Shown here in pieces: positions 11,131 to 29,694 of a DNA stretch of 41,934 nucleotides. Position numbers and translations under genes: made by a program. The notes below the pieces were generated by a model, which had not been told where the DNA came from, did no database searches, and saw only the letters and a list, made by a program, of their open reading frames with translations. Each line of letters opens with the position of its first letter. The stretch's first letter is position 1. Location of the stretch: contig PBZS01000065.1 of NCBI GenBank assembly GCA_002730235.1, positions 1 to 41,934 of the forward strand, given 5' to 3'. The stretch comes from Gammaproteobacteria bacterium (GTDB taxonomy: Bacteria; Pseudomonadota; Gammaproteobacteria; Pseudomonadales; Litorivicinaceae).

Positions 11131-11691
11131 CTAAGGCGACAAATTTGCTTTTCTCCAACGGATGACTTTCGCAGGACTTCCAGCACAGACGCTTTCTGGA
11201 GGCAAATCGGCGAAGACAGTGCTTCGTGCGCCCACGACACAGCCAAAGCCGATTGTTATACCCGGAGCGATGAATACGTCACTAGCAATCCAAGCTTCAT
11301 CTTGTATGAAAATAGGTTTTCGAATCATATCGAAACAATAAGACGTAATATCGTGCGTCCCAGTGCAGACATAAGTGTTTTGACTGACGACAACGTGATC
11401 GCCAATGGATATTTCACCCAAACTATACAGCTCCACATTATCACCAATCCACGACCAATCACCGATTCGCACTTTCCAGGGGTAAGTCATTCTTACCGAA
11501 GGCCGCAGAATTACCCCCTCACCGATTTTCGCACCAAACGCACGAAACCAAAACCTCCTCCACCCGTACATGAACTGCGGTGAGCATCCAATTACGACAG
11601 ATTGAAATATCCACCAAAATTGAACAAAAAAAGCACCACGCCCCCTGAATCCATCTGGCAGCTTGAACCTCTGGAGATCGTGAAACTTCAT
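11131..11691 (-). CDS. wcaF: WcaF-like O-acetyltransferase (left-handed beta-helix)
   Basis: A 186-residue hexapeptide-repeat acyltransferase. The N-terminal F-W-W-I-F-Q-S-V-V-I segment and R-R-F-W-F-R-A-F-G-A-K-I-G are typical of the WcaF/NodL-type colanic acid acetyltransferases. Isoleucine-patch repeats follow (I-G-E-G-V, I-G-D-W-S, I-G-D-H-V). The catalytic histidine region is C-T-G-T-H-D-I. The end reads A-G-S-P-A-K-V-I-R. It acetylates a sugar hydroxyl with acetyl-CoA in the cytoplasm before flipping. The ATG at 11691 directly abuts an AGAGG, so translation may be weak. Confidence 0.88.
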   Translation of the reverse strand: MKFHDLQRFKLPDGFRGRGAFFVQFWWIFQSVVIGCSPQFMYGWRRFWFRAFGAKIGEGVILRPSVRMTYPWKVRIGDWSWIGDNVELYSLGEISIGDHVVVSQNTYVCTGTHDITSYCFDMIRKPIFIQDEAWIASDVFIAPGITIGFGCVVGARSTVFADLPPESVCAGSPAKVIRWRKANLSP

Positions 11692-17586: not shown

Positions 17587-18429
17587 TTAGGTGTCTAGGA
17601 TATTACGCCCAATACCGATTGCGCCAGTTTCCAGATTTGATTCGATAAATTCTTGGAGCTCAGCATAGTCTACATGCTCATTGGGAAAACGATGCCATTT
17701 TTCGCCGCCCCCCACCAATATAGACTGCGTTTGTTTCGCTAACGAAACTGCTCGCTCACATAGCTCCCGATCAGGCTCCAGACCCAGCCAATAAAGGATC
17801 AGTGCAAGCGTATTCGATGGATCGTGAAAAAGATTTTCAAAACTTATTCGTAGCGAATTAGTGCCTCCTTTAGCGATGTCAGCGAATGACGAATACTGAG
17901 CAAGCGTTTCGTCCCTAGTATTGTCATACAAATCCTGAGGGCCGCTATACGCGGACCTAAATCTTCTGTCGCAGTTGAACTTCATAAACCACGAAACCAT
18001 CGCCTGATCTTTCCGATCTCTATATGTATGCAAAACCCTCACTCCCCTCCACGAGAAGGAACGGAGAGACATGTGAGATCTCGGCAAGTCTTTAATCCCC
18101 AAGGCCCCGATTCTGTAATCAGGTTGTTTGCGCGATAAAACAAACGTATATCCGCTGTGCCAGCTATTCGGAAAAAACGAGTCAACGATGGCATGGTCGA
18201 CTTCTACCACCGGACCGTTATCATATTTCTCGCTCCACAAAGCGGCGTAATAGGCTAATAAAAACCTGACATAATGCGTTCCCGTCTTCGTGGTTGTAGC
18301 CAAAATCACGATGTCTTTTTTTTGTAAGTTAGAAACACAAAGCCTGAGGGAAAATAAGATCCTTGCGACTAGGTCGTTGTCCACTAGGGGCCTTATGATT
18401 GCTACTCGAGCCCTCTGAAAAATACTCAC
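17587..18429 (-). CDS. PAPS-dependent sulfotransferase 1
   Basis: A sulfotransferase-family protein. The 5'-phosphosulfate loop is A-T-T-T-K-T-G-T-H-Y (about res 44-53) and the 3'-phosphate site is V-L-H-T-Y-R-D-R-K-D-Q-A-M-V-S-W (132-147). These bind 3'-phosphoadenosine-5'-phosphosulfate. I place the start at GTG 18429, five bases after AGAAGGG and three bases past the stop of the next upstream gene. A longer ATG start (18492) would overlap that gene by 61 bases with no ribosome site. Unlike its neighbour it lacks a clear C-terminal 'G..G.W...F' PAPS loop. It probably sulfates a sugar of the repeat unit; the acceptor is unknown. Confidence 0.82.
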   Translation of the reverse strand: MSIFQRARVAIIRPLVDNDLVARILFSLRLCVSNLQKKDIVILATTTKTGTHYVRFLLAYYAALWSEKYDNGPVVEVDHAIVDSFFPNSWHSGYTFVLSRKQPDYRIGALGIKDLPRSHMSLRSFSWRGVRVLHTYRDRKDQAMVSWFMKFNCDRRFRSAYSGPQDLYDNTRDETLAQYSSFADIAKGGTNSLRISFENLFHDPSNTLALILYWLGLEPDRELCERAVSLAKQTQSILVGGGEKWHRFPNEHVDYAELQEFIESNLETGAIGIGRNILDT

Positions 18430-18431
18430 TA

Positions 18432-19361
18432 TTACCCTTCTAATATCATTGCTTCGATATCGATCCCGCGAGCCAAGAATTTGTCTTTCCAAAATAAAAA
18501 TTGACGGTCAGTGTAATGTTCTCGCCACTGCCCAACCTGACCGCTGGAAATAAAGCTGCCCCTAAGGCCGAGCGCCTCTGGATTGACCTTGCCACCAAGA
18601 TTTTCCGCTTGTTTAACGTTTTTGATAGTCGACGCAGCCACTGCTTCCTCGAGCGCTGGCCCATCGACTTCACACCCCAACCATTCAACAATTGAGCGCA
18701 ACCAAAAGTGTGGCTCGAAAATTAGGCTCTCGTAAGCGATCCTTAAAACAGAATACCGGCCATCTGACGATGCACGGGTGTAGCTCTCATACATCTGACA
18801 ATAGTTTTCAAATTTCAGTTCAAGAACTTCTTCCGGAGACTCGCACCGATCTGGCAGGTCCGGCCTTTTTTTGTGTTTGTAGTTATACAAGGACACTGAG
18901 TAATCCAGAGGATTTCTGTATAAATGAAGCACTTTATGGTGACGCCAATACACCTTTTGAAAAAGCGAATGAGACCGCGTTATCTCGTCGAGACGAAGGT
19001 AAGCGATATCCCCGTTGGGCGGCTTTGGAGGCGAAGCAATCATTGGGCCAAATGGAAGCTTATGGTACGACATATAATTGAGATGCCAATTATTTGGCAA
19101 CATTATGTTCATTTCCGATGGACCGATCGGCAGCTTCCTGCTCGCGAGGGCGGCCACGTAATTAGTCAACAATAACATAGCATAGTGCGTTCCTGACCGT
19201 GCGATAGTCGCTATGATCATCATTTTATGTTGCTCTATCCCACGCTCACGCAAATGGCCCTTGTAAAATAACGCATAGCTGAAGCCGCGAGCCAGAAAAT
19301 CTAGCGACTTGCCTGGCGGGATTCTACGAGCAACATCTCTTATAGACTGATTGAGATTCAT
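18432..19361 (-). CDS. PAPS-dependent sulfotransferase 2
   Basis: A 309-residue sulfotransferase with all three family landmarks. These are the 5'-phosphosulfate loop I-A-T-I-A-R-S-G-T-H-Y (50-60), the 3'-phosphate site K-V-L-H-L-Y-R-N-P-L-D-Y-S-V-S-L-Y (143-159), and a C-terminal R-G-S-F-I-S-S-G-Q-V-G-Q-W-R-E-H-Y (267-283) like the R-K-G-x-x-G-D-W-K-x-x-F motif. It is a paralogue of the next gene, with shared T-H-Y after the loop and P-N-x-W-H before the acceptor region, but clearly diverged. Its ATG overlaps the TauE/SafE stop. The predicted role is sulfation of a polysaccharide precursor. Confidence 0.9.
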   Translation of the reverse strand: MNLNQSIRDVARRIPPGKSLDFLARGFSYALFYKGHLRERGIEQHKMMIIATIARSGTHYAMLLLTNYVAALASRKLPIGPSEMNIMLPNNWHLNYMSYHKLPFGPMIASPPKPPNGDIAYLRLDEITRSHSLFQKVYWRHHKVLHLYRNPLDYSVSLYNYKHKKRPDLPDRCESPEEVLELKFENYCQMYESYTRASSDGRYSVLRIAYESLIFEPHFWLRSIVEWLGCEVDGPALEEAVAASTIKNVKQAENLGGKVNPEALGLRGSFISSGQVGQWREHYTDRQFLFWKDKFLARGIDIEAMILEG

Positions 19362-20074
19362 AAGTCGTTATACTCAGTGAAAACCTTTGTCAGAATAATC
19401 ATGCCTACACCACCGACGAATAAGTTTGTAATATCACGATAGCGTTCTCCTGGTACTCGAGCAAACATGATTGATCCAGCAATATAAGAAAGTAGGGGAA
19501 CGATAAGATTCATCACCTCGAAGGCTCGAAACACCCTCGGCCCATCAACGAGTAACACCGTCGCCAGCTGAATTGATGCCATCAGCCCGTACGAGAAGGC
19601 AACCAAGCTCCTAGCCTCGTTTTTGTCAGAAGTCTTCACACCAGACCACCACAAAAGAAGCGCTCCACCCTGATTTGTAAAGCCATGAATTATGCCTATT
19701 ACGGGCATTGCAACTTTTTCGTCTTTCGCAAAGGAGTTCGTGAGCGCATCGCTGCGCGCAAAATGGAGAAGCGAACTGAATACCAAGGAAAGCCCAACTA
19801 AAAGAGTCAGAATATCGATCGATCTTTCCAAAGCGAACCACGTGCCAATAGCGATTGTAAAAGTCAATAAAATAATTCCGGCCGGCGTAACGCCCCTCAC
19901 TCCCGCGTGCAAAACCGTGGAGACGGAAACAGTTATCGAAATAGGTAAAAGAAGAATCAACACTTCAAAGAAGTCGTAGCCGAGCATCAGAAACACCGGA
20001 GTTCCAAATAAAAGTACCCCGACCCCAATGATCGATTGAACCACGGACAATAAGACTAGTATGAGGAGTTCCAA
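19358..20074 (-). CDS. TauE/SafE-family membrane permease
   Basis: A 238-residue membrane protein with seven or eight hydrophobic helices and the duplicated architecture of the TauE/SafE (DUF81) family. The repeats are marked by Q-S-I-I-G-V-G-V-L-L-F-G-T-P near the N-terminus and G-I-I-H-G-F-T-N-Q-G-G-A-L-L-L in the middle. Members export sulfite or sulfonates or import small anions. Being stop-start coupled to two sulfotransferases, it may move a sulfur oxyanion for the sulfation step, which is inference. The start is TTG 20074; it is slightly shorter than the usual 245-265 residues. Confidence 0.8.
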   Translation of the reverse strand: MELLILVLLSVVQSIIGVGVLLFGTPVFLMLGYDFFEVLILLLPISITVSVSTVLHAGVRGVTPAGIILLTFTIAIGTWFALERSIDILTLLVGLSLVFSSLLHFARSDALTNSFAKDEKVAMPVIGIIHGFTNQGGALLLWWSGVKTSDKNEARSLVAFSYGLMASIQLATVLLVDGPRVFRAFEVMNLIVPLLSYIAGSIMFARVPGERYRDITNLFVGGVGMIILTKVFTEYNDL

Positions 20075-20147: not shown

Positions 20148-21068
20148 CTACCAACCTTCTCGAGTCAGTAAAGGGCGACCAGAATAAGATGACTGATCAA
20201 AATTAATCACGGGACTGTCTTTATTAACGTGCCGAAACACGCATAGTCCTCGGCCACCCAACTCGAGCGTTAAGGCAGCGTCGGGATCTTTACGAGCTAC
20301 GGACCACGCACTGTGCATGCCCTCAGACCAAAAAATATCATCGAAGAGAATGGCCCCGCCCTCCGAAAGCAAGCCCTTTATGCGGTTTGCGTAATAGAGT
20401 GTAGCTTTCTCCTCATGTTGACCATCGATGAATGCAAGATCGAAACGCTCTCTGGACTCGTCGAGCTCTGAAAGCGCGTCATCAAACAGACTATTTTCAA
20501 CATGGTATGCGCTGGAGAAGGATCCAAGGTTTTTCCTAGCAATCTCGCTGAGCTTTTGACTGCCTTCAATCGAATATAAAAAAGGCCTTTGCCGGGCACT
20601 CAAAAAGTAGCATCCGGATAATCCTGTGTTAGTCCCTAATTCCAAAATTCTGTTAGATCTGAGCGCCTCAGCCACCTTCCTAAGTTGAATTCCGCCGAAT
20701 GCACCAGTTCCCGTTCGTGCGAATCCAGCGTTCGTGCTTTTTACCGCCGCACCTGGTACTACTTGCCCTCTGTCATCAAAAAGGCTCGTTCCGCTATGGG
20801 GGGAGCCAAACGTTTCCACTGTATCTTCTCGATATCCAGTGGAGACAGCTTCTCGTATTGCCTCAACTTTTTCGACCACAATTCGATCTTGATTAGTAAA
20901 GAGAGGTGTATACGAAAATAGTGCTACTTCGACTAAATTTGCCGGCAGTTTCTCTTTTACATCCCGTACATACCTACCCTTGCTAAGCGCAGTGCGAAGA
21001 AATTGGATGGCCCTATGCCGGACTTTGCGAAAATTATTAATTAGTCTCAATATATTTTTCAATCTCAC
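20148..21068 (-). CDS. Class I SAM-dependent O-methyltransferase-like protein
   Basis: A 306-residue methyltransferase. Motif I is R-I-L-E-L-G-T-N-T-G-L-S-G, followed by a second strand with S-I-E-G, then F-D-L-A-F-I-D-G-Q-H-E-E and G-G-A-I-L-F-D-D-I-F-W-S. The D-G-x-H and D-D-I pairs are typical of metal-dependent O-methyltransferases (Methyltransf_24/OMT-3-like). The N-terminal 80 residues are basic and of unknown function. The GTG at 21068 overlaps the DUF4910 gene by 32 bases. Context suggests methylation of the nonulosonic-type sugar or its acyl side chain. Confidence 0.8.
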   Translation of the reverse strand: MRLKNILRLINNFRKVRHRAIQFLRTALSKGRYVRDVKEKLPANLVEVALFSYTPLFTNQDRIVVEKVEAIREAVSTGYREDTVETFGSPHSGTSLFDDRGQVVPGAAVKSTNAGFARTGTGAFGGIQLRKVAEALRSNRILELGTNTGLSGCYFLSARQRPFLYSIEGSQKLSEIARKNLGSFSSAYHVENSLFDDALSELDESRERFDLAFIDGQHEEKATLYYANRIKGLLSEGGAILFDDIFWSEGMHSAWSVARKDPDAALTLELGGRGLCVFRHVNKDSPVINFDQSSYSGRPLLTREGW

Positions 21069-22392
21069 GTGGTTTTGAAGATATCAGATTTTTTGATTCC
21101 CATGCTGCGATCAGTTCGTTTAGCTCAACGAAATCACACTCGAGATCCAAACAAATTTCGCTCAACAGCTTATCATTTTTGATTTGCCAAACTAGCTTTT
21201 CTTGGAGATTGTATTTTTCCCGGTGTTCTGAGGGATTGAAGAAAAGACCGTGCCTGCTGAGCATTGGAATTCCTATAAAATTACGTTTTACGTAGAGGTC
21301 GTTTTCTAAAACATATATAAATCGCTGTATATATTTTATCGCTTCCCTCAATGCGCCAAGATCCGAATTTTCAATGGTGTCCTCAGACGTATGATACCTT
21401 CGGTACGGGTGATCCGCATTTTCTCTACCAGAAGCTCGAGTAATGCTCGCCGAGGGCACATCAATCCCAGGAGCGCCAAATACCTTCTCGTCGTTTCGAA
21501 TGACGCCCAAAAATTCTGTGAACCTGGCACTCGGTATAACCCCTTCTGCAGCCGCTTTTAGCGCTCGCGTTACGTAACTCTCGGGGTGCTCGCTCATTTG
21601 AATATGCAACGGAGTGCCAAGCGCCAGCATCTCAGTGAATATTGCCATATGCATATTTTCAAAGCGCTTAGAGTCAGAACAATAAGCGTGGGACCCAATG
21701 GTTTCGGGCATGAAGAGAAACTTGTAGGTGTAGCTAGGTTTTGGATAAAATTCCCTCAGCCAGCCGCATAGATAAAAATTCACAAGCACCCCAACCAACC
21801 CATCATTGAACTGAGCTGGGTGACACATATGGGATAAGAAAGTTACCTCTTGGGTTTGAGCACCAGGGATTATTATCTCAGCTACCTTCAACGATCCCGG
21901 ATAGTGCCTCGTCTTAAGCTCAACTGCGTATTTTTTTTCGTCCTCCAGAGAGTTCCATTCATCCTGCGTAAGAGAAATTCTCCAAGAGTCATCGTAATAC
22001 ACATACTGATGCTTGATGGAAGTTGGAAGATTATTCGCCACGCTGCAATGCATTTTAAGCTCAAGACCAGTCAGCTCACCGCTAAAAGCGTTAGAGTGGG
22101 ACGCAACACGGAGCGGATGATCGAGACATACAATCACCTCGGACGTTTCGCAATCCAGCACCTCGAGACTATCGCATACCCAGCTCTCAGGTACTCGCCA
22201 GTCAAGAATCTCTGCCCCCGTAGGAAACTCTAACAAGTCACAATTCGTATGAGCCTTAAGCTGTTGAAAAGCTTCATCTATGCCTTTGCCAGTAATACTC
22301 TTGTGTAACCCAAAAATATTTCGAGCGAAATTGACGGCCTCCAAAAAGCGGCCTTCGTGAATATCTAAAGCCTCAGATTTGACTGAAGTCAT
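21037..22392 (-). CDS. DUF4910/DUF2172 aminopeptidase-like protein
   Basis: A 451-residue cytosolic protein matching the DUF4910-type family: an M28-like zinc aminopeptidase fold with an inserted DUF2172-type domain and a C-terminal winged helix. Metal-site motifs visible are S-H-M-C-H-P (187-192), N-D (196-197), M-P-E-T-I-G-S (228-234) and R-Y-H-T-S-E-D-T (332-339). The C-terminal 60 residues form the helix-turn-helix-like tail. Members occur in sialic/legionaminic/pseudaminic-type clusters and other polysaccharide loci with no settled reaction; removal or transfer of an amide-linked group has been the usual guess. The ATG overlaps the stop of the VOC gene. Confidence 0.82.
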   Translation of the reverse strand: MTSVKSEALDIHEGRFLEAVNFARNIFGLHKSITGKGIDEAFQQLKAHTNCDLLEFPTGAEILDWRVPESWVCDSLEVLDCETSEVIVCLDHPLRVASHSNAFSGELTGLELKMHCSVANNLPTSIKHQYVYYDDSWRISLTQDEWNSLEDEKKYAVELKTRHYPGSLKVAEIIIPGAQTQEVTFLSHMCHPAQFNDGLVGVLVNFYLCGWLREFYPKPSYTYKFLFMPETIGSHAYCSDSKRFENMHMAIFTEMLALGTPLHIQMSEHPESYVTRALKAAAEGVIPSARFTEFLGVIRNDEKVFGAPGIDVPSASITRASGRENADHPYRRYHTSEDTIENSDLGALREAIKYIQRFIYVLENDLYVKRNFIGIPMLSRHGLFFNPSEHREKYNLQEKLVWQIKNDKLLSEICLDLECDFVELNELIAAWESKNLISSKPREIEKYIETN

Positions 22393-22784
22393 ACTTCCTC
22401 CAAGAATTCCGTCAGCTGACCCGCTAAATATGCAAAGAATGTTCGACCGCCACCAAATAGCTCGACAGGAGCTGGCATTGATGGACGAACAACTTTCTTC
22501 TCAAAACGCGCCAACGTTTCCTCATATTTCTTTGTCTGGTAGCAAATATGGTTAATTATCAAGCGCCGTTTTTGAGAATTAAAAGCGGGGGAATCTTTTC
22601 CAACCGGAACAATCAGCTCTAAATCAGGGTCTCCTGATTCAGGACTCCTTAACATCACGATGTTCACTTTCTGATTTCTTACGAAAATCGGACCAACTTT
22701 CACTGAGTACCCGAAATTGTCGCAATAGAACTTAGCGCTACGATCCAGCGATTGAACAACATAACCAATATGATTTATTTTCAT
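22389..22784 (-). CDS. VOC (glyoxalase/bleomycin-resistance fold) protein
   Basis: A 131-residue vicinal-oxygen-chelate protein with the two beta-alpha-beta-beta-beta halves. The first begins I-N-H-I-G-Y-V-V-Q-S-L-D-R-S-A-K-F-Y and the second I-I-N-H-I-C-Y-Q-T. Metal-ligand candidates are the two histidines at the start of each half and glutamates in D-L-E-L-I and T-E-F-L-E. The reaction is unknown; similar stand-alone VOC genes are found in acyl-CoA epimerase and sugar-modification clusters. ATGA overlaps on both sides show tight coupling to the PglD-like and DUF4910 genes. Confidence 0.8.
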   Translation of the reverse strand: MKINHIGYVVQSLDRSAKFYCDNFGYSVKVGPIFVRNQKVNIVMLRSPESGDPDLELIVPVGKDSPAFNSQKRRLIINHICYQTKKYEETLARFEKKVVRPSMPAPVELFGGGRTFFAYLAGQLTEFLEEV

Positions 22785-23470
22785 GGATGAAGAAATTTAA
22801 GTCTTCTTTCAGCTTTCTGTACGCTCTCCGGCAGCGGCACCACAGCAACTTCAGACCTCGCCGAAACTATCGAATCGCTCTTTGGAGATTTGCTTACCAC
22901 GGTGCCCGCATTTATAAAAACGTGATGATGAATGTCTCGAGTCACCGAACAATTCGCGGAAAAAAAAGAGCTTTTACTGACGTTTACAGAGCCTTTGAAT
23001 ACACAACCGGCCGACACAAATGTCGACTTCGCTAAATTTACCTCCCGGCTACACACCGAATTAAAAAGGATAATACTAAAGTCACCCACAACGGCATCAC
23101 TATCGACAACAACCCCGGGCGCAATGTAGACACCCTGACCCACCCGCGCCGTAGAAGAAACTGCAGCTTGAGGGTCAAGCACGCTTGCGCTTTTTAATCC
23201 AACCTCTTTTAAAAACGTTTCGATTTTGTTTAATCGACCGAAGATGTCATATGGTTTGAAAAAAGCAAAGATGATCTCATCCTTTGGGTCACGGACGTTA
23301 ACTAACCTGTCCGGCGAAATCACGTCGCAGTTATAGAATTCGGATCCAACGACACTTTTGTCATCATCAACGAAAATAACTTCTGTATATTTGGTCTCGC
23401 CCCGTTTGACCGAGTCAAAGATTGACTTACCAATCCCGCTACAACCGTATATGTATAGCTTGTTTCTCAT
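22781..23470 (-). CDS. PglD/NeuD-like sugar acyltransferase (left-handed beta-helix)
   Basis: A 229-residue protein. It has an N-terminal Rossmann-like PglD domain (L-Y-I-Y-G-C-S-G-I-G-K-S-I-F-D) and a C-terminal hexapeptide beta-helix (A-A-V-S-S-T-A-R-V-G-Q-G-V-Y-I-A-P-G). PglD/NeuD proteins acetylate a sugar amine or the O-position of nonulosonic acids. The repeats are less regular than usual and the catalytic histidine normally found after the first coils is not obvious. The active site may therefore be modified or use another acyl donor. It overlaps the end of the ANL gene by 32 bases. Confidence 0.78.
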   Translation of the reverse strand: MRNKLYIYGCSGIGKSIFDSVKRGETKYTEVIFVDDDKSVVGSEFYNCDVISPDRLVNVRDPKDEIIFAFFKPYDIFGRLNKIETFLKEVGLKSASVLDPQAAVSSTARVGQGVYIAPGVVVDSDAVVGDFSIILFNSVCSREVNLAKSTFVSAGCVFKGSVNVSKSSFFSANCSVTRDIHHHVFINAGTVVSKSPKSDSIVSARSEVAVVPLPESVQKAERRLKFLHP

Positions 23471-24899
23471 ACGCTGCTTTATTCAAAATCTGATTGATGC
23501 GCCAAATTTCTGGCTTGCCATTTTCAACACGCGGTATATCTCCCTCTAGGACAAATATCCTGAAGGGAACGCGCCCTAAAAGGTTGCTAAAAACCGACTT
23601 TTCCACCCCACTATACTCCAAAGCAGCGACCACCTCTGCTTGTTTTTGAACACTACGATATTGATTGCTATATATGCCGATTAGTAAGCGTTCGCGTTTA
23701 CCTTCATCTGCGCATATAAAACAGGCCTCAATCCCTAAAACGGACTCCAAAGCCAATTGAATTGGCGTCATCGCTACTCTGCGGCCCCCAATTTTAACAA
23801 AATTTTTGTTACGGCCTAGGATAAATAACTGGCCGTCAACAAATGAACCAATATCACCGGTACCGTAGTAAGGTACGCCTTCCCAGACACGTTTATCCAT
23901 AAACTCCGAGGCGTTCTCGCAGATTGAAGGTGAATCCAGATATATTTCTCCTTCTCCGTCGGAATTTGGTTCGTTAACTCGAACACCAATTCCAGGGAGC
24001 GGTGGGCCAACACATCCACGCTTTGCAGTTTCGAGTGTTGGTTTATACTGTGCAATTCTCCCAGAAAATTCAGTTTGGCCGTACATTATCCAGACTGCGA
24101 TATTCGGTCCTAGTTCTAATAATTCCTTTAGATCACGATCTTTTAAACGCCCCCCGGCCTGGGTCAGCATTCTTATATGAGAGTTTTTTAATTTCGCGAT
24201 ACCCCATTTCGTCAAAAGTGAGTATGTGTAGGGAACCCCAGAGAAAATTGTGATTTTCCTGCTAATAATCTCTGCAAATAGCAGTGAAGGCCGAGAAATG
24301 CTCGCGCAAGGAATGGCGAGTACGCCCCCCGAGATTAGCCAGGTAAGAACAATGGATAGTCCGTAAACGTAATTAATAGGCATGTAAAACAACTGCCTGT
24401 CATTGCTTTTTACATTAAGCGCTGCTGCCACTGCCTGCGCTTGAAATCGAACAGATTTTTCCCCGATCTCAACCGCTTTCGGAACACCGCTGCTGCCGCT
24501 GGTATTGAGTGTTAGTTTAAACTCAGACCGGCAGCGGTCTAGCTCCGGAGGCCTCGTTGTTGCACCTTGCACGTGCTCCTTCCTGGCGTTACTGTGGATT
24601 AAGGAGCGGAGTCTTGCATCGATTACATCATCAAAATCCGAATCTTTCTCTTTAGACTCGGGTCTGTGCGGCAAAATTGCCACAGAGGCCCCAAGCTCCC
24701 AACCCAAAAGAAAGCCATAAAGCGCCTTTGTTCCATCTTCAGCGTAAACTATCACCTCAGTAACTCCAGCAAAACAAGGAGCTTGAGAGTCAGCCACAAG
24801 ACTGCTCACTAAAGACCTCCAGCTAATTGCTCTCCCTGACGCGAACTCTAGTGCAGGAGACTCTGAATCTGCGCTACCCAACCATGAAGACAATCTCAT
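23439..24899 (-). CDS. ANL-superfamily acyl-activating enzyme (AMP-dependent ligase)
   Basis: A 486-residue adenylate-forming enzyme, a bit shorter than a typical acyl-CoA synthetase. Motifs in order are the P-loop T-S-G-S-S-G-V-P-K (133-141), Y-G-Q-T-E (273-277), Y-G-T-G-D (345-349), hinge L-G-R-N-K-N-F-V-K (361-369) and the catalytic lysine K462 in N-G-K-P-E. The core is complete, so it should activate a carboxylic acid as acyl-AMP and pass it to a thiol. The acyl carrier protein is encoded six bases upstream in the same operon, making acyl-ACP the likely product. The acid is unknown. Confidence 0.88.
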   Translation of the reverse strand: MRLSSWLGSADSESPALEFASGRAISWRSLVSSLVADSQAPCFAGVTEVIVYAEDGTKALYGFLLGWELGASVAILPHRPESKEKDSDFDDVIDARLRSLIHSNARKEHVQGATTRPPELDRCRSEFKLTLNTSGSSGVPKAVEIGEKSVRFQAQAVAAALNVKSNDRQLFYMPINYVYGLSIVLTWLISGGVLAIPCASISRPSLLFAEIISRKITIFSGVPYTYSLLTKWGIAKLKNSHIRMLTQAGGRLKDRDLKELLELGPNIAVWIMYGQTEFSGRIAQYKPTLETAKRGCVGPPLPGIGVRVNEPNSDGEGEIYLDSPSICENASEFMDKRVWEGVPYYGTGDIGSFVDGQLFILGRNKNFVKIGGRRVAMTPIQLALESVLGIEACFICADEGKRERLLIGIYSNQYRSVQKQAEVVAALEYSGVEKSVFSNLLGRVPFRIFVLEGDIPRVENGKPEIWRINQILNKAAYEKQAIHIRL

Positions 24900-24904
24900 G
24901 ATAG

Positions 24905-25132
24905 TCAGGTTTCGAAATACCGAAGAATTTTTTCAGCCGTATCTGTTGCTTCCATATCTTCGATCGATAGTTCGATATCATACTCCTCTTCCAAAGCCGT
25001 CATGATTTCCAGATGAACTAAAGAATCCCATCCGTCGGTTTCTCCGAGCCCAAACGAACTTGGATCCTGCGCAATTTCAGCGGAGTCCACTTTTATAATC
25101 TCGCTAATTATGTCGATTATCGTTTCGTTCAA
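24905..25132 (-). CDS. Acyl carrier protein
   Basis: A 75-residue acidic carrier protein with the phosphopantetheine site G-W-D-S-L (Ser37), preceded by a helix I-I-S-E-I-I and followed by acidic helices (E-E-E-Y-D-I-E-L-S, I-E-D-M-E). The TTG at 25132 is the best start: it lies seven bases after GAGGAG and four bases after the stop of the AAC(3)-like gene. A TTG five codons earlier would sit inside that ribosome site. It is too divergent and wrongly placed to be the fatty-acid-synthesis ACP, so it is a dedicated carrier for the ligase next to it. Confidence 0.9.
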   Translation of the reverse strand: MNETIIDIISEIIKVDSAEIAQDPSSFGLGETDGWDSLVHLEIMTALEEEYDIELSIEDMEATDTAEKILRYFET

Positions 25133-25136
25133 AATT

Positions 25137-25865
25137 TCACTCCTCAATTAACGCCATGCGATTTGCCGCCAAACGTGGTGCGGCGAAGTCCACAAATGCG
25201 GCTACGTTAAAAAGCCTGCATGGCCTGCTATTAAACGAAAGTTGCGTGTCGCACTGCGAAAAATATGCCTCACGAATTGGGTCTGGGATCATTTTTTTTA
25301 CATCTGATGTTCGGGCATAGAAATCGGTGAAAGACGCAAAGCTCTCTGACTCAGTGTGCACGACTCCTGAAAACCTTTGCAGCTTGCGATAGGGCACCCC
25401 TACCGTTTGCTCCACATAATGAACGAGAGAGAGGATATCAGTTCCCAATTGCAATATTTTCCCTCCAGACCGGTTGAGTTGACCGACGATAGATCCTTCA
25501 CCATAGGAACTATGGTCCCATTGCTCAATGAATTCCGAGGCGCTGTTGCCGATCAAGTAGTATGAGGTCATTCCATCTGGAACTCGTTCCACGCTTTTTT
25601 CTCGTGAAAACAGCGTCGTCAAGGCTCCAATTGACGACGAAGTTTTTTGCAAATGAAAGGCATCAGGAAATGTAAACGTAAAGCTTGGCGTTACCAGCAA
25701 GCCTTCTTCCCCGACCCTATGTCTAAACACGTCTACAAGACCGTGACCGCCACCCTCTAAGCGACCAAATATCCTCAGGTCCGCATGAATTAGGACGTGA
25801 TCTCCTTTAGAAATACCAAGATCCTCTAGCAATGTTGCAACATCTTTCAGCAGCGTTTTTTTCAT
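25137..25865 (-). CDS. AAC(3)-family N-acyltransferase
   Basis: A 242-residue protein of the aminoglycoside 3-N-acetyltransferase fold (antibiotic_NAT). Near the N-terminus is I-H-A-D-L-R-I-F-G-R-L-E-G-G-G, the family's 'vHsSl..lG.v.GG' motif, followed by L-L-V-T-P-S-F-T-F. In the middle G-K-I-L-Q-L-G-T-D-I-L-S-L-V-H-Y-V-E carries the conserved His and Glu. Members outside resistance acylate amino sugars. With an ACP and acyl-activating enzyme directly after it and a nonulosonic-acid pathway before it, the likely job is N-acylation of an amino-sugar intermediate from acyl-ACP. Resistance to an antibiotic is unlikely here. Confidence 0.85.
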   Translation of the reverse strand: MKKTLLKDVATLLEDLGISKGDHVLIHADLRIFGRLEGGGHGLVDVFRHRVGEEGLLVTPSFTFTFPDAFHLQKTSSSIGALTTLFSREKSVERVPDGMTSYYLIGNSASEFIEQWDHSSYGEGSIVGQLNRSGGKILQLGTDILSLVHYVEQTVGVPYRKLQRFSGVVHTESESFASFTDFYARTSDVKKMIPDPIREAYFSQCDTQLSFNSRPCRLFNVAAFVDFAAPRLAANRMALIEE

Positions 25866-25878
25866 TCGGAGAGCTCAA

Positions 25879-26589
25879 TCATCGTGCAGACAGAAACATT
25901 TCTGGTTTTTCAAGGGAGGTTAATTCCCAATATGGAACAGTAATAACATCGCGACCAGCGCACAGGCGGCGCAACTCATCTAATTCTGACTGCAAATCCA
26001 CAACGAACCCGAATCTCGAGTGGTCGTCTATTTGGTTCACACAACCATATGAACCAAATATTTCTTCGCGGTATAGGTGTTGAGTTATGTGCTCCCTATC
26101 CACCAACGCTCTGGCCTCTCGGACTGATTTTTTAAAAAAATCGGCCCGCATCAGCTCGGCGCTTATTCCATACGGAAATCTTCTATCGAATAGATTACTC
26201 ACGAAATCAAATTCGCGGGCCGCACCGATTGTATAGTTGATTAGACTATTGTCGATTAGCGGGGAATCACCGTTCAGTCTCAAAAAATATTCCGCGCCAC
26301 TCAAATCTAAAGCTTTCTCTGTGCGTCTGACTAAGTCGTGAGCATCACCTCGAATCACGGGCAGGCCAATCTCCTCCGCAGCTCGACACAGATCATCATC
26401 TAGGCCGCGATCCGTTGTTACTAGGAACTGACAATCTAATTTTGTCTGGAGACTTCGTTCATAAACTATCCTGAGTATACTGTGGCCCTCGATACTCATA
26501 AGGATCTTACCGGGTAACCGCGACGAATCGCTTCGAGCGTAAATAAAGCCAGCGACGAGAGGCGAGGCGGCTGACACGTCACTCACCAC
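25879..26589 (-). CDS. SpsF/NeuA-like cytidylyltransferase (CMP-sugar synthetase)
   Basis: A 236-residue nucleotidyltransferase of the cytidylyltransferase family that activates 3-deoxy-ulosonic acids with CTP. It has A-R-S-D-S-S-R-L-P-G-K-I-L near the N-terminus (the R-x-x-S-x-R-L-P-G-K CTP loop), then L-R-L-N-G-D-S-P-L-I-D, a metal-binding stretch. It resembles SpsF and the pseudaminate synthetases more than NeuA proper. It begins at GTG inside the end of the neuB-like gene; the alternative GTG at 26577 has AGGTGG eight bases upstream and may be the true start. Confidence 0.85.
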   Translation of the reverse strand: MVSDVSAASPLVAGFIYARSDSSRLPGKILMSIEGHSILRIVYERSLQTKLDCQFLVTTDRGLDDDLCRAAEEIGLPVIRGDAHDLVRRTEKALDLSGAEYFLRLNGDSPLIDNSLINYTIGAAREFDFVSNLFDRRFPYGISAELMRADFFKKSVREARALVDREHITQHLYREEIFGSYGCVNQIDDHSRFGFVVDLQSELDELRRLCAGRDVITVPYWELTSLEKPEMFLSAR

Positions 26590-27670
26590 CTATCATTTTT
26601 TTCTCTTTCATCTCGTTAGCCCAAAAGGCACTAGCCTCCTTGCAATTAGAGCCCACGATTGAAACGTTAGAGCCCGTGCCCAGAGCACTATATTGTGGCG
26701 CCGCTTCAGTAATCAGCAAACCGACCAAATCTCGAGGGTCATGCCCTTCATATTCAGAACTGGGACGAACGAACAATAAATCGTCCTCTGTAATCCGATG
26801 ACCTGCCTCTAGGTCCCTTGACGCGTATATGCCTCTTCTCGCTCGAATCTTTGTTTTCAATTCTCCAGATTCAGAGGACAGACTTTCTTCCGACCAATTC
26901 AACGCCTCCTCACAAAGTGCGACGGTTTGTACATAATTATTTAGCTCTTCAGGGCTTTGAGCATGAGCGTGATCGAAACCAGCTAAAGTCTTATCAAAAG
27001 TGAAATGCTTTTCAAAAAATCTGGCACCTGCGGTCCACGCGAGTATTGCTGAGCGCTCGTCGATAGTATGGTCTGAGTAACCCACATCCAATCCGAAGGC
27101 GCTCTTTAAGGCACTGATTCTAGATATCTTCGACTCCTCGAACGCACACGGATACATAGACACACAATGTAAAAGCTTTAGATCTATTTTTTGGTTCGCC
27201 GCTTTAGCGACAGAAACGGCATTTGCAATCTCCGCTAGGCTAGCCATCCCTGTACTGAGCAATACGGTCGAAAATTCTTTACAAACCTTTTCAATCAGCA
27301 AGTGGTTCGTCAGATCCGTCGAGGCGATCTTTACGTATCCAGCTCCTAATCTCTTCAGAAGGCTAATGCCGCGATCACAAAAGACTGAGGCGCTTATATC
27401 GATCTCCCTTAAAGCAGCATACCTCCATATCTCTTCCCATTGCTCGTCGCCAAACTCCTCTGATCTTCGTTGGGCGTAAACCTCACTGTCGTAATAGCTC
27501 CCGTCGATTAAATATTTTGGGAGGTAAAGCCCCTCTGAGAAGATAAACTGGAATTTTACCGAACTTGCGGATGCTGATTTGGCAATATCTATGAGCTTTT
27601 TCGCATCATTCAAACTCCCGTTATGGTTACTACCCGCCTCCGCGATCACACCCCCATTATGATATTCCAT
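26579..27670 (-). CDS. neuB: NeuB/PseI/LegI-type nonulosonic acid synthase
   Basis: A 363-residue enzyme that condenses phosphoenolpyruvate with a 2-acylamino sugar to give a nine-carbon sialic-acid-like sugar. TIM-barrel motifs are all present: I-A-E-A-G-S-N-H-N-G (9-18), V-K-F-Q-F (37-41), Y-V-K-I-A-S-T-D-L, L-L-S-T-G-M-A, L-L-H-C-V-S-M-Y-P, G-Y-S-D-H-T-I and F-E-K-H-F-T-F-D-K. A C-terminal SAF antifreeze-like domain starts near residue 280 with R-R-G-I-Y-A-S-R-D-L. The usual substrate-loop 'PDH..SL' is replaced by F-D-H-A-H-A-Q. Which sugar it makes cannot be read from sequence. It overlaps both neighbours. Confidence 0.92.
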   Translation of the reverse strand: MEYHNGGVIAEAGSNHNGSLNDAKKLIDIAKSASASSVKFQFIFSEGLYLPKYLIDGSYYDSEVYAQRRSEEFGDEQWEEIWRYAALREIDISASVFCDRGISLLKRLGAGYVKIASTDLTNHLLIEKVCKEFSTVLLSTGMASLAEIANAVSVAKAANQKIDLKLLHCVSMYPCAFEESKISRISALKSAFGLDVGYSDHTIDERSAILAWTAGARFFEKHFTFDKTLAGFDHAHAQSPEELNNYVQTVALCEEALNWSEESLSSESGELKTKIRARRGIYASRDLEAGHRITEDDLLFVRPSSEYEGHDPRDLVGLLITEAAPQYSALGTGSNVSIVGSNCKEASAFWANEMKEKKMIGGE

Positions 27671-28592
27671 GTAAATTCCTCAATTCAGCATCTATTTGCT
27701 GCGCTAATAATGATCCATAGCGGGCAAAGTTTTTTTTATGTAAAAGCGCATTTAATGTTTGCCAAGTTTCAACATCCTCCGCCAGGCGAGAGACCGTTTT
27801 TGAACTAAGGCTCTCTAAGTCGATCTTCTTACACCATCCATTTTCGTAAAAAAAACGATTCTTATGATGCGCATTAGGTCGGACGATGGAAATAGCCGGC
27901 ACGGCTCGTGCTATGGCTTCAAAAAGCATCAGTCCGTCGCCCGTAACAAATAAATCGACATGACCGAGAGCGCCCCAAAGATCATTATTTGCAGATAGAA
28001 AACTTATTTCACAATCGACGTTGTTCGCTATCGCACCGTTATGACCAACCACGATGACTTTTTTTATGGAAGTTACGCGTGATAACCCTTCTAAGATCGT
28101 TTCGATATCGGCGTACGACTCTCCACCTGAGATACAGACGCCCACAACCCTATTACGAGGCCTCACGGCCTCGCAAATCTGATCCGGGCATAGCCCTGCG
28201 AAGGCAAATCTCGGGTCTATGACAACTCTGCCGCCTGCCTTTATAACGTCAGCCGTCGTGTCAGTGTGTGCCCTGGTCATTGCACAAGAAAATATTTCCC
28301 CCTTGTCAAAGACCGGGGAGATCAAGATTTTTTTCCTGAATGCATCCGACAGAGAACGGAATTCAGGGAGTATGGAAGTTGCATCAACTATCAACACATC
28401 CCCTCGCGCATCCGCGGCAACGCTTATCTCATAGCCGGACTCAACGAGAGTAGCACGAGCGCCCCTACTAAAGTTGCCAGTGACAGTAACGCCGTGCCCA
28501 AATGCCATGAGCTGAGCAATTACTTGTTTCGATCTGTTTAGGTGCCCCGACCCATCTCTTTCGCCAGCGCCAATGTAGAAATGCATATCCAA
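27657..28592 (-). CDS. pseG: PseG/SpsG-like UDP-sugar hydrolase
   Basis: A 311-residue GT-B-fold protein. The N-terminal G-S-G-H-L-N-R-S corresponds to the G-x-G-H-x-x-R loop of PseG, which holds the catalytic histidine. The second half has V-G-V-C-I-S-G-G-E-S-Y and a final nucleotide site F-V-T-G-D-G-L-M-L-F-E-A-I-A-R-A-V-P, close to PseG's 'GG.T..Ea...G.P'. PseG removes UDP from UDP-2,4-diacylamido-trideoxy sugars before NeuB-type condensation. Order pseG, neuB, cytidylyltransferase agrees with that. It starts at TTG 28592 or ATG 28586. Confidence 0.78.
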   Translation of the reverse strand: MDMHFYIGAGERDGSGHLNRSKQVIAQLMAFGHGVTVTGNFSRGARATLVESGYEISVAADARGDVLIVDATSILPEFRSLSDAFRKKILISPVFDKGEIFSCAMTRAHTDTTADVIKAGGRVVIDPRFAFAGLCPDQICEAVRPRNRVVGVCISGGESYADIETILEGLSRVTSIKKVIVVGHNGAIANNVDCEISFLSANNDLWGALGHVDLFVTGDGLMLFEAIARAVPAISIVRPNAHHKNRFFYENGWCKKIDLESLSSKTVSRLAEDVETWQTLNALLHKKNFARYGSLLAQQIDAELRNLHGIS

Positions 28593-28593
28593 G

Positions 28594-29694
28594 TCAGGCT
28601 AGCCTACATAAATTTACGTAGGCCTCCACAAGGCCTTTGAATTCTTCGAGAATCTCGATTTGATCTTCATGAATGCTAGCCCATTTCCCTTTTCTAAGTG
28701 AATCATCGGCGGAAATATAGCCACCTTCCCTGATAAGCGTGTCAATCATAGGTCCGGCGTCGCCTCCGCAGTCCATCATCTTTATCGAGCTATCGAGGAC
28801 CCCTAAATCCGAACAGAGACTCTCTGCTCTCTCGTCATAAGTGATGTTCACAACAGGTTTATTAAAAGCGATCGCGGGCAGGCTCGCGTGTAAACGATAA
28901 CTCACTAACATCGAACAGTTAGATATCAGGGACAGATATTGATAAACATCGTTCGTGTAAACAGGGTCAACGCTGAATGCACCTTTAAATTGAACAGCGA
29001 AATCCAAATCTCTTGAGTCATTACAGAGAATTCGAACTCGGTTATGACCGGACTCTCGCAGGGCATAAATAGCAGTCTCAATGTGTTTTTGAACAAGGTT
29101 CTGTTGGGAGATGGGTAGATTCATTAATGAAGGCGTGCGTATGGAAATGAGCGACCCTACTATCTCCGAATCTGGAAGTGGGGGCAAAAAGCTTTTATAC
29201 CCGTTCAAATTTATAGTGGGGCAAAAACCGATTCTGTCGTTTTCCCCCAGCCCACGAATGTAATTGTATGTAGCTGTATCACGAGACGCTGATATGTCGG
29301 AGGCGCGAACTAGACTCTTCAATTTTTGGTCCGAAATTACGTCAGTGCGCTCCTCTAAACTTCCATTGCGCCCATACACCCGCCCTCGAGAGTTTGAAAA
29401 AAGCATTAGTGGAGCCTTAAGGTTCGCTAAGGCTACAGGGTCAACTTCAATTTCGTTATTCTCGTAAAGATTTCCGCCACCCACTATAACCCCGTCAGCG
29501 AAGCGGTTGATCTCATGAACGGTGCTTTTTGTAAGCCCAGCTCTCGCAGTACTCTCATAACGAGATGTTGCCGGATAGTCTATTATAGTGACTAAGCGAC
29601 CGAAAACCTCGTAAAGCATATGCCTCATTGCGAAGCTTATCGCCGTGTTTCCTACGTTGTGCCCAAACGGCCTTATATTCGCTAGTGTATACAC
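28594..29694 (-). CDS. Polysaccharide pyruvyltransferase family protein
   Basis: A 366-residue protein of the polysaccharide pyruvyl transferase family (CsaB/WcaK-like), which makes pyruvate ketals on sugars using phosphoenolpyruvate. Visible motifs are P-F-G-H-N-V-G-N-T-A-I (early glycine loop), V-I-V-G-G-G-N-L-Y-E-N-N, S-D-I-S-A-S-R-D, and the late S-Y-R-L-H-A-S-L-P-A-I-A-F-N-K-P (the 'R.H..i.A...g.P' signature). GTG 29694 follows GGGGAG by eleven bases. Its TGA is two bases from the pseG start, so it heads the nonulosonic module, directly after the GalE gene. Confidence 0.85.
   Translation of the reverse strand: MYTLANIRPFGHNVGNTAISFAMRHMLYEVFGRLVTIIDYPATSRYESTARAGLTKSTVHEINRFADGVIVGGGNLYENNEIEVDPVALANLKAPLMLFSNSRGRVYGRNGSLEERTDVISDQKLKSLVRASDISASRDTATYNYIRGLGENDRIGFCPTINLNGYKSFLPPLPDSEIVGSLISIRTPSLMNLPISQQNLVQKHIETAIYALRESGHNRVRILCNDSRDLDFAVQFKGAFSVDPVYTNDVYQYLSLISNCSMLVSYRLHASLPAIAFNKPVVNITYDERAESLCSDLGVLDSSIKMMDCGGDAGPMIDTLIREGGYISADDSLRKGKWASIHEDQIEILEEFKGLVEAYVNLCRLA

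Follow-up and report, generated by a model that had tools for sequence, protein, structure and literature searches.

We analyzed a 41,934 bp stretch of DNA, hereafter the window (contig PBZS01000065.1 of assembly GCA_002730235.1), from a gammaproteobacterium of the family Litorivicinaceae that is known solely as a genome bin (88% complete, 2.1 Mb, 109 contigs). Our subject is a cassette of three genes at positions 23439–25865 of the minus strand and the larger module to which it belongs. In the order of transcription, the three genes encode an AAC(3)-fold (Antibiotic_NAT) N-acyltransferase of 242 amino acids (25137–25865; PF02522, 92.8 bits, E 3e-26), an acyl carrier protein (ACP) of 80 amino acids with a TTG start codon (24905–25147; PF00550, 29.5 bits, PP-binding E 9e-7) and an ANL ligase of 486 amino acids, the predicted acyl-ACP loader (23439–24899; PF00501, 87.8 bits, AMP-binding E 8e-25). 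They lie directly after the genes for a NeuB-family nonulosonic acid synthase (26579–27670; PF03102, 191.6 bits) and an SpsF/KdsB-like cytidylyltransferase, the predicted CMP-nonulosonate synthetase (25879–26589; PF02348, 62.6 bits). The NeuB and cytidylyltransferase genes overlap by 11 nucleotides (nt), 13 nt separate the latter from the AAC(3) gene, the AAC(3) and ACP genes overlap by 11 nt and 5 nt lie between the ACP and ANL genes. The open reading frames, Pfam matches and small gaps confirm what the first-pass annotation of this DNA had described: three consecutive, intact genes immediately behind neuB and the CMP-synthetase gene, an ACP with an intact G-W-D-S-L motif (its serine is Ser42 by count) and an ANL enzyme with a complete active site.

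The limits drawn in that annotation proved too narrow, as the run continues beyond the ANL gene with four more genes overlapping by 4–32 nt. These encode a NeuD/PglD-family left-handed beta-helix (LbH) protein (22781–23470; TIGR03570, 97 bits, under the cut-off of 160.8), whose gene overlaps that of the ANL ligase by 32 nt, a VOC protein resembling methylmalonyl-CoA epimerases (22389–22784), a DUF4910/DUF2172 protein (21037–22392; PF16254, 153 bits) homologous to PDB 3k9t, and an S-adenosylmethionine-dependent methyltransferase (20148–21068; Pfam Methyltransf_24), whose gene overlaps the DUF4910 gene by 32 nt. In total, 11 minus-strand genes, from a pyruvyl transferase gene (28594–29694) to the methyltransferase gene, follow one another with no gap above 13 nt and are probably transcribed together.

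The AAC(3) protein belongs clearly to its family (the PF02522 cut-off is 25 bits), and its AlphaFold2 model (48 sequences) has a mean predicted local distance difference test score (pLDDT) of 95.7. Among the 50 entries listed in a structure comparison, 29 Antibiotic_NAT entries had Z scores of 23.6–24.6, while the next entry scored 6.7. Residues H27 and H149 occupy the alignment positions of the two histidines mutated in meta-AAC0038 structures; in an alignment of 48 rows, E152 is kept in all 48 and H149 in 46.

The core motifs of the ANL ligase (TSG, G..PK, YG..E and Y.TGD) and its C-terminal lysine (K462) are invariant across 12 other aligned ANL proteins. ANL enzymes that activate amino acids carry an aspartate at motif A4. 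This position is Val178 in the window protein, while 11 of the 12 other aligned cassette ANL proteins have Asp and one (L055) has Gly. Because it lacks the A4 Asp typical of DltA-like adenylating enzymes, the window protein is probably an acyl-ACP ligase for an acid other than an amino acid; the absent Asp argues against an amino acid as the loaded acid. The four nearest ANL relatives in 368 other genomes of the class (E 1e-30, at most four candidates scored per genome) all carry YxxG at A4, with no Asp. An ACP gene directly adjoins two of them; for a third, a partial ACP match lies about 0.8 kb upstream, and none was found for the fourth. A fold model of the ANL protein (13 sequences) reached a mean pLDDT of only 66.3 and was not used.

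The window DUF4910 protein retains the three zinc-site residues of PDB 3k9t (H191, D197, H334), and a deacylase role is possible. It should be mentioned that the zinc-ligand Asp is found in the window protein and in 3k9t, while all nine other aligned rows (L015–L118) have Asn. In the VOC protein H5, E56, H79 and E126, which we take to be the usual metal ligands of the superfamily, are invariant among seven cassette proteins. Among its matches in NCBIfam and PDB are methylmalonyl-CoA epimerases (44 bits, where the cut-off is 115) and glyoxalase-type proteins; if the loaded acid has a stereocentre at its alpha carbon, an epimerase acting at that carbon of the acyl thioester would be in keeping with it. 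The LbH protein, aligned with 4ea7 and 2vhe, has no catalytic His at the place used by PglD and PerB, which argues against its being an N-acetyltransferase of the NeuD/PglD kind.

Relatives of the AAC(3) protein were found in one genome when 243 others of the order were sampled (E 1e-8), in 11 of 397 drawn from the phylum (E 1e-10) and at 34 loci of a genome-contig collection. For the family to which the Campylobacter bin G613 belongs, 81 genomes were searched with PF02522; 24 gave a match, and 14 of these were used for locus analysis. None was present in the seven other genomes drawn from the genus of the window, and the window locus therefore looks accessory. The counts that follow refer to 58 unique other AAC(3) loci and to neighbors on the same strand that lie no more than 6 kb from the AAC(3) gene. 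Two loci (L015 and L018) had been dropped as coming from the same genomes as L034 and L050. All 58 loci were picked by AAC(3) similarity, so that the rates are valid for that group alone, and the seeds of the hidden Markov models (HMMs) were drawn partly from counted loci. The controls, for which both strands were searched, were 20 hand-picked regions at GNAT genes of these genomes; 18 were kept, four regions being shorter than 14 kb, after L134 and L141 had been dropped for sharing a contig with an AAC(3) locus.

DUF4910 was the commonest neighbor (46/58). An ACP was found in 36 loci, a loader in 37, both in 35, and DUF4910, ACP and loader together in 29. The loader is either an ANL protein (18 loci) or an FkbH protein (19 loci), never both. 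Of the two loci with a loader and no ACP, L024 and L057, the second is a 3.7-kb contig. VOC genes were present in 13 loci, and four loci had none of DUF4910, ACP, ANL or FkbH. In the control regions each of these four was absent (0/18), and NeuB and a VOC match were found once each. When Aeromonas was counted once, 50 loci remained, 38 with DUF4910, 28 with ACP and 29 with a loader; the Fisher p values of 7e-9 for DUF4910, 9e-6 for ACP, 1e-3 for ANL and 0.02 for FkbH are optimistic because of shared ancestry. The distance between the ACP and AAC(3) matches, taken from an earlier count whose seeds included three ACP sequences and one NeuB in the wrong frame, was at most 24 nt in 9/9 Aeromonas loci and at most 63 nt in 9/14 loci of the Campylobacter family. 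The chance raised in the first-pass annotation that the three genes never co-occur elsewhere was not borne out: ANL and ACP genes accompany AAC(3) in 16 of the 58 loci, the form also seen in the window, and FkbH and ACP genes do so in 19.

FkbH enzymes load glyceryl groups onto ACPs. An unbroken run FkbH-ACP-AAC(3)-VOC-DUF4910 was found in nine Aeromonas loci (L029–L033, L035–L037, L045) and in Balneatrix. The window has the ACP, AAC(3), VOC and DUF4910 genes on one strand, as in this FkbH module, and the FkbH HMM gave no match in it. Eight of the 14 loci of the Campylobacter family (L108–L110, L112–L114, L116, L117) have PseB- and PseC-like genes immediately ahead of DUF4910. In L112, L113 and L116, ACP and FkbH genes come after the order pseB-pseC-DUF4910-AAC(3), and other loci of the family, such as L109 and L117, have ANL and ACP genes after DUF4910-AAC(3). 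A methyltransferase gene accompanies ACP and FkbH in L112 and L116, the two loci scanned for it. Tracts of 8–11 G or C lie in, or within 60 nt of, the DUF4910 or AAC(3) match in 11/14 loci, in agreement with the reported phase variation of cj1295 and cj1296 (PMC13130089). No such tracts of 8 or more were found at the window locus. In a quickly built tree of 65 AAC(3) sequences the loader labels change 14 times, against 31 in shuffles. The loader types are therefore clustered on the AAC(3) tree, with several switches between them.

Several further gene sets were noted in these genomes. L108–L110 comprise three AAC(3)-like genes within a single flagellar pseudaminic acid (Pse) locus, together with several ACP-like reading frames, and L109 has two genes resembling ketoacyl-ACP synthase III. 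An additional ACP, ANL and LuxE-like set (L031, 10100–13186) lies about 7 kb from the FkbH cassette of its Aeromonas island. In the host genome of the window, contig C84 (L143, 402–5841) carries an FkbH gene with its own ACP, a second carrier-protein cassette; by inspection, this region contains GNAT-like, MaoC-like and methyltransferase genes, and no AAC(3) or DUF4910 match was found in its 15 kb.

Upstream of neuB, the 11-gene run contains a PseG-like gene (27657–28592) and the gene for a polysaccharide pyruvyl transferase family protein (28594–29694; PF04230, 65.6 bits), both on the minus strand. The PseG-like protein shares 21% identity with its counterpart on contig C11 of the same genome (blastp 3e-8 in a three-protein comparison); it had no Pfam or NCBIfam match and no PDB match with E below 0.7. 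The window NeuB is 30% identical to the PseI-like protein of C11. Because matches to Wzz, Poly_export/SLBB, YjbH, a bacterial sugar transferase, GDP-mannose dehydratase and glycosyltransferases surround the cassette, the region looks like a polysaccharide locus. Two sulfotransferase-like genes, one of them under the Pfam cut-off, and a TauE/SafE-like gene lie nearby (17587–20074), so the polysaccharide may be sulfated. A further hexapeptide (LbH) acyltransferase-like gene (11131–11691) is flanked by glycosyltransferase genes. A PHROGs scan gave no named function apart from the ACP. Contig C11 carries a flagellar Pse island (L064, 1449–13258) in which PseB-, PseC-, PseF-, PseG-, PseH- and PseI-like genes, most of them named by inspection, adjoin flagellin. 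It also contains a PseA-like amidotransferase gene and HisH/HisF-like genes, and its product is therefore likely to be an acetamidino Pse.

We propose, at about even confidence, that the loader, ACP and AAC(3) genes form a dedicated module that N-acylates a nonulosonic acid destined for an exported polysaccharide. A carboxylic acid would be activated by the ANL ligase and loaded onto the small ACP, and the VOC protein may determine the configuration at the alpha carbon of this acid. The AAC(3)-fold enzyme would then transfer the ACP-bound acid to an amine of the nonulosonic acid or of its precursor. DUF4910 would remove or otherwise handle the acyl group present before, most likely the N-5 acetyl derived from N-acetylglucosamine (GlcNAc), and the methyltransferase may O-methylate the product. 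From the gene order we infer that the ACP is the acyl donor; the target nitrogen and the order of the steps are likewise putative. More generally, and with less than even confidence, we suggest a plug-in exchange of N-acyl groups, in which DUF4910 frees or swaps the group, AAC(3) re-acylates the amine from a dedicated ACP and an exchangeable loader sets the acid: glycerate for FkbH, amino acids for DltA-like ANL proteins and another acid for the window ANL.

The N-5 of Pse derives from GlcNAc, so that a new group can be attached there only after deacylation, a requirement that would account for the association of AAC(3) with DUF4910. A Campylobacter jejuni mutant in Cj1295, a DUF4910-type gene, was reported to lack 5-N-(2,3-di-O-methylglyceroyl) pseudaminic acid, and Hitchen et al. 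(2010) proposed that Cj1295 removes the N-5 acetyl group (PMC3068675). The oxonium ion calculated for the di-O-methylglyceroyl form is 391.17, compared with 391 reported in the same paper.

A number of observations weigh against the proposed module. One genome-contig scan with the window AAC(3) alone gave no relative, and in the 65-row tree this protein forms a long branch (2.17) in no supported group. H27 is conserved in just 38 of the 48 aligned relatives, and the solved AAC(3) enzymes carry CoA or acetyl-CoA. No AAC(3) match was found in the regions retrieved around the four nearest ANL relatives. NeuB was a neighbor in just 6/58 loci, compared with 1/18 controls, and AAC(3) and DUF4910 occur without ACP or loader in 16/58. 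When DUF4910 was used as the anchor in the 243 genomes of the order, only two of the four other matches had AAC(3): G103 has a full FkbH module and G202 carries NeuB together with a divergent AAC(3) at a distance of about 5 kb, while G114 has NeuB and no AAC(3) on its 10.5-kb contig, and G099 has neither. The window DUF4910 protein lacks the catalytic Asp and Glu of M28 peptidases (A193 and P229 stand in their places). We take Cj1296/7 of C. jejuni to be an AAC(3) gene, partly because of its place after Cj1295. Described as an N-acetyltransferase gene, it is reported to be out of frame in each of the two variants of strain NCTC 11168, and the glyceroyl sugar is still made (PMC3068675). In this strain another transferase may attach the glyceroyl group, or low-level expression of Cj1296/7 may be enough.

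PseH acylates the 4-amino group that later becomes N-7, and the first-pass annotation had suggested that the cassette stands in for this enzyme. The cassette would then acylate the 4-amino group of the UDP-sugar, with PseB and PseC supplied by the flagellar island. The host genome indeed has a PseC that scores over its cut-off, C11 carries a PseB-like gene, and no GNAT was found among the 35 Pfam-scanned reading frames of the window, most frames shorter than 180 amino acids being unscanned. The claim that a GNAT is missing holds for those frames only, since C11 has a GNAT at the place of PseH (84 bits, under the PseH cut-off of 93) within its Pse island. The PseH function is therefore probably not missing in the host, which weakens PseH replacement as the main role of the cassette. 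PseH matches over the curated cut-off were moreover found in six of 35 genomes searched, all six of which also have such an AAC(3); weaker GNAT matches, present in 34/35 genomes and in 13/14 control genomes, are uninformative. In addition, the commonest neighbor of AAC(3), DUF4910, is tied to N-5 by the work on Cj1295 (PMC3068675). We thus regard replacement of PseH as rather unlikely. What stands of the earlier interpretation is that ligase, ACP and AAC(3) belong together as an acylation unit of this nonulosonic acid locus; the unit would replace an N-acyl group, probably the one at N-5 and not the one added by PseH.

It is unlikely that AAC(3) merely acetylates from acetyl-CoA while ANL and ACP serve another acceptor, for instance through the LbH protein. 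The overlap of the LbH and ANL genes is consistent with such a division, as are the presence of the acyl-ACP enzymes LpxA and LpxD within the LbH fold, a weak match between the LbH protein and an LpxD-type model (52 bits, where the cut-off is 207) and the loci with AAC(3) and DUF4910 that have neither ACP nor loader. On the other hand, the LbH protein lacks the His of PglD and PerB, and the ACP match closely adjoins AAC(3) in Aeromonas and much of the Campylobacter family. A role of DUF4910 itself as the transacylase, with AAC(3) serving a different step, appears improbable. Das et al. (2014) considered transacylation for the homologue CA_C2195, and the gene in the AAC(3) position is out of frame in C. 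jejuni 11168 (PMC4000134, PMC3068675), but the window AAC(3) retains its fold and catalytic residues, and 12 of the 58 AAC(3) loci have no DUF4910 neighbor. The least credible option, which we consider very remote, is an aminoglycoside resistance gene placed by chance beside a polysaccharide locus: the fold matches AAC(3), but the protein scores only 71.9 bits against the cut-off of 270 of the curated resistance equivalog (NF033082, AAC_3), and the coupling of the genes and the recurrence of the module argue against it.

Comparable gene sets, whose acid-loading enzymes are interchangeable, are found in many other bacteria. If the proposed plug-in exchange is real, AAC(3) enzymes would be relatives of ACP-dependent sugar acyltransferases, and unusual N-acyl groups would be predicted for the glycans concerned. 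An exchangeable loader would allow the acyl group to be predicted from the genes, and roles could be assigned to DUF4910, the VOC protein and AAC(3) homologues in glycan loci. The origin of glyceroyl-pseudaminic acid in C. jejuni would become testable with purified proteins. For many surface sugars with odd N-acyl groups we know of no enzyme that adds the group. Such sugars are common in bacteria (PMC3210612).

The window protein shares its fold and catalytic residues with AAC(3), FrbF and YokD of the Antibiotic_NAT family. The characterized members use acyl-CoA, and to our knowledge none of these enzymes has an ACP partner. The DltA-DltC pair likewise consists of an ANL enzyme and a small ACP, but the window ANL differs in having no A4 Asp. 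In C. jejuni, the flagellin island Cj1293–Cj1302 has a DUF4910-type gene beside pse and N-acetyltransferase genes and an fkbH-domain gene, cj1302 (PMC3068675, PMC7099621); this island is FkbH-type, phase-variable and devoted to flagellin, whereas the window module is ANL-type and lies among polysaccharide export genes.

The closest published neighborhood is CA_C2187–CA_C2199 of Clostridium acetobutylicum (Das et al., 2014), where NeuB (spsE), SpsF, a glyoxylase, DUF4910, an amino-sugar N-acetyltransferase and an ACP occur together as in the window (PMC4000134). Its last gene, described as an N-acetyltransferase with a HAD phosphatase and read here as FkbH, takes the place of the window ANL. 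For CA_C2195 the authors likewise described zinc-site residues without the M28 catalytic pair, suggesting transacylation first and an amidase reaction second; their discussion of the gene neighborhood and of CA_C2195 contains no loader-ACP-transfer mechanism (PMC4000134). Among the matches listed in our literature search, no statement of exchangeable ANL and FkbH loaders feeding an AAC(3) enzyme was found. The FkbH-type neighborhood is thus already published, while the exchangeable-loader mechanism was not found in the literature searched.

In the FkbH islands of Aeromonas the parts equal those of the window except for the loader, which is FkbH and not ANL, and no SpsF-like gene was seen, unlike in the window. 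In Aeromonas bestiarum (L037), a weak Methyltransf_24 match, an MptE-like gene, presumably of the Maf type, and PseI-, PseG- and PseF-like genes lie nearby on the opposite strand. The ACP and ligase genes of flagellar islands have been classed under fatty acid synthesis (PMC7874193, PMC4875605); in Aeromonas these genes seem to correspond to the second ACP/ANL set and not to the FkbH cassette. A Pse derivative of 376.14 Da (oxonium ion 377.2) with an unknown 102 Da moiety has been reported from Aeromonas piscicola AH-3 (PMC7874193). The mass calculated for Pse with one acetyl exchanged for mono-O-methylglyceroyl is 376.148, the residue itself accounting for 102.032. We therefore predict that the 376 Da sugar of Aeromonas is mono-O-methylglyceroyl-Pse.

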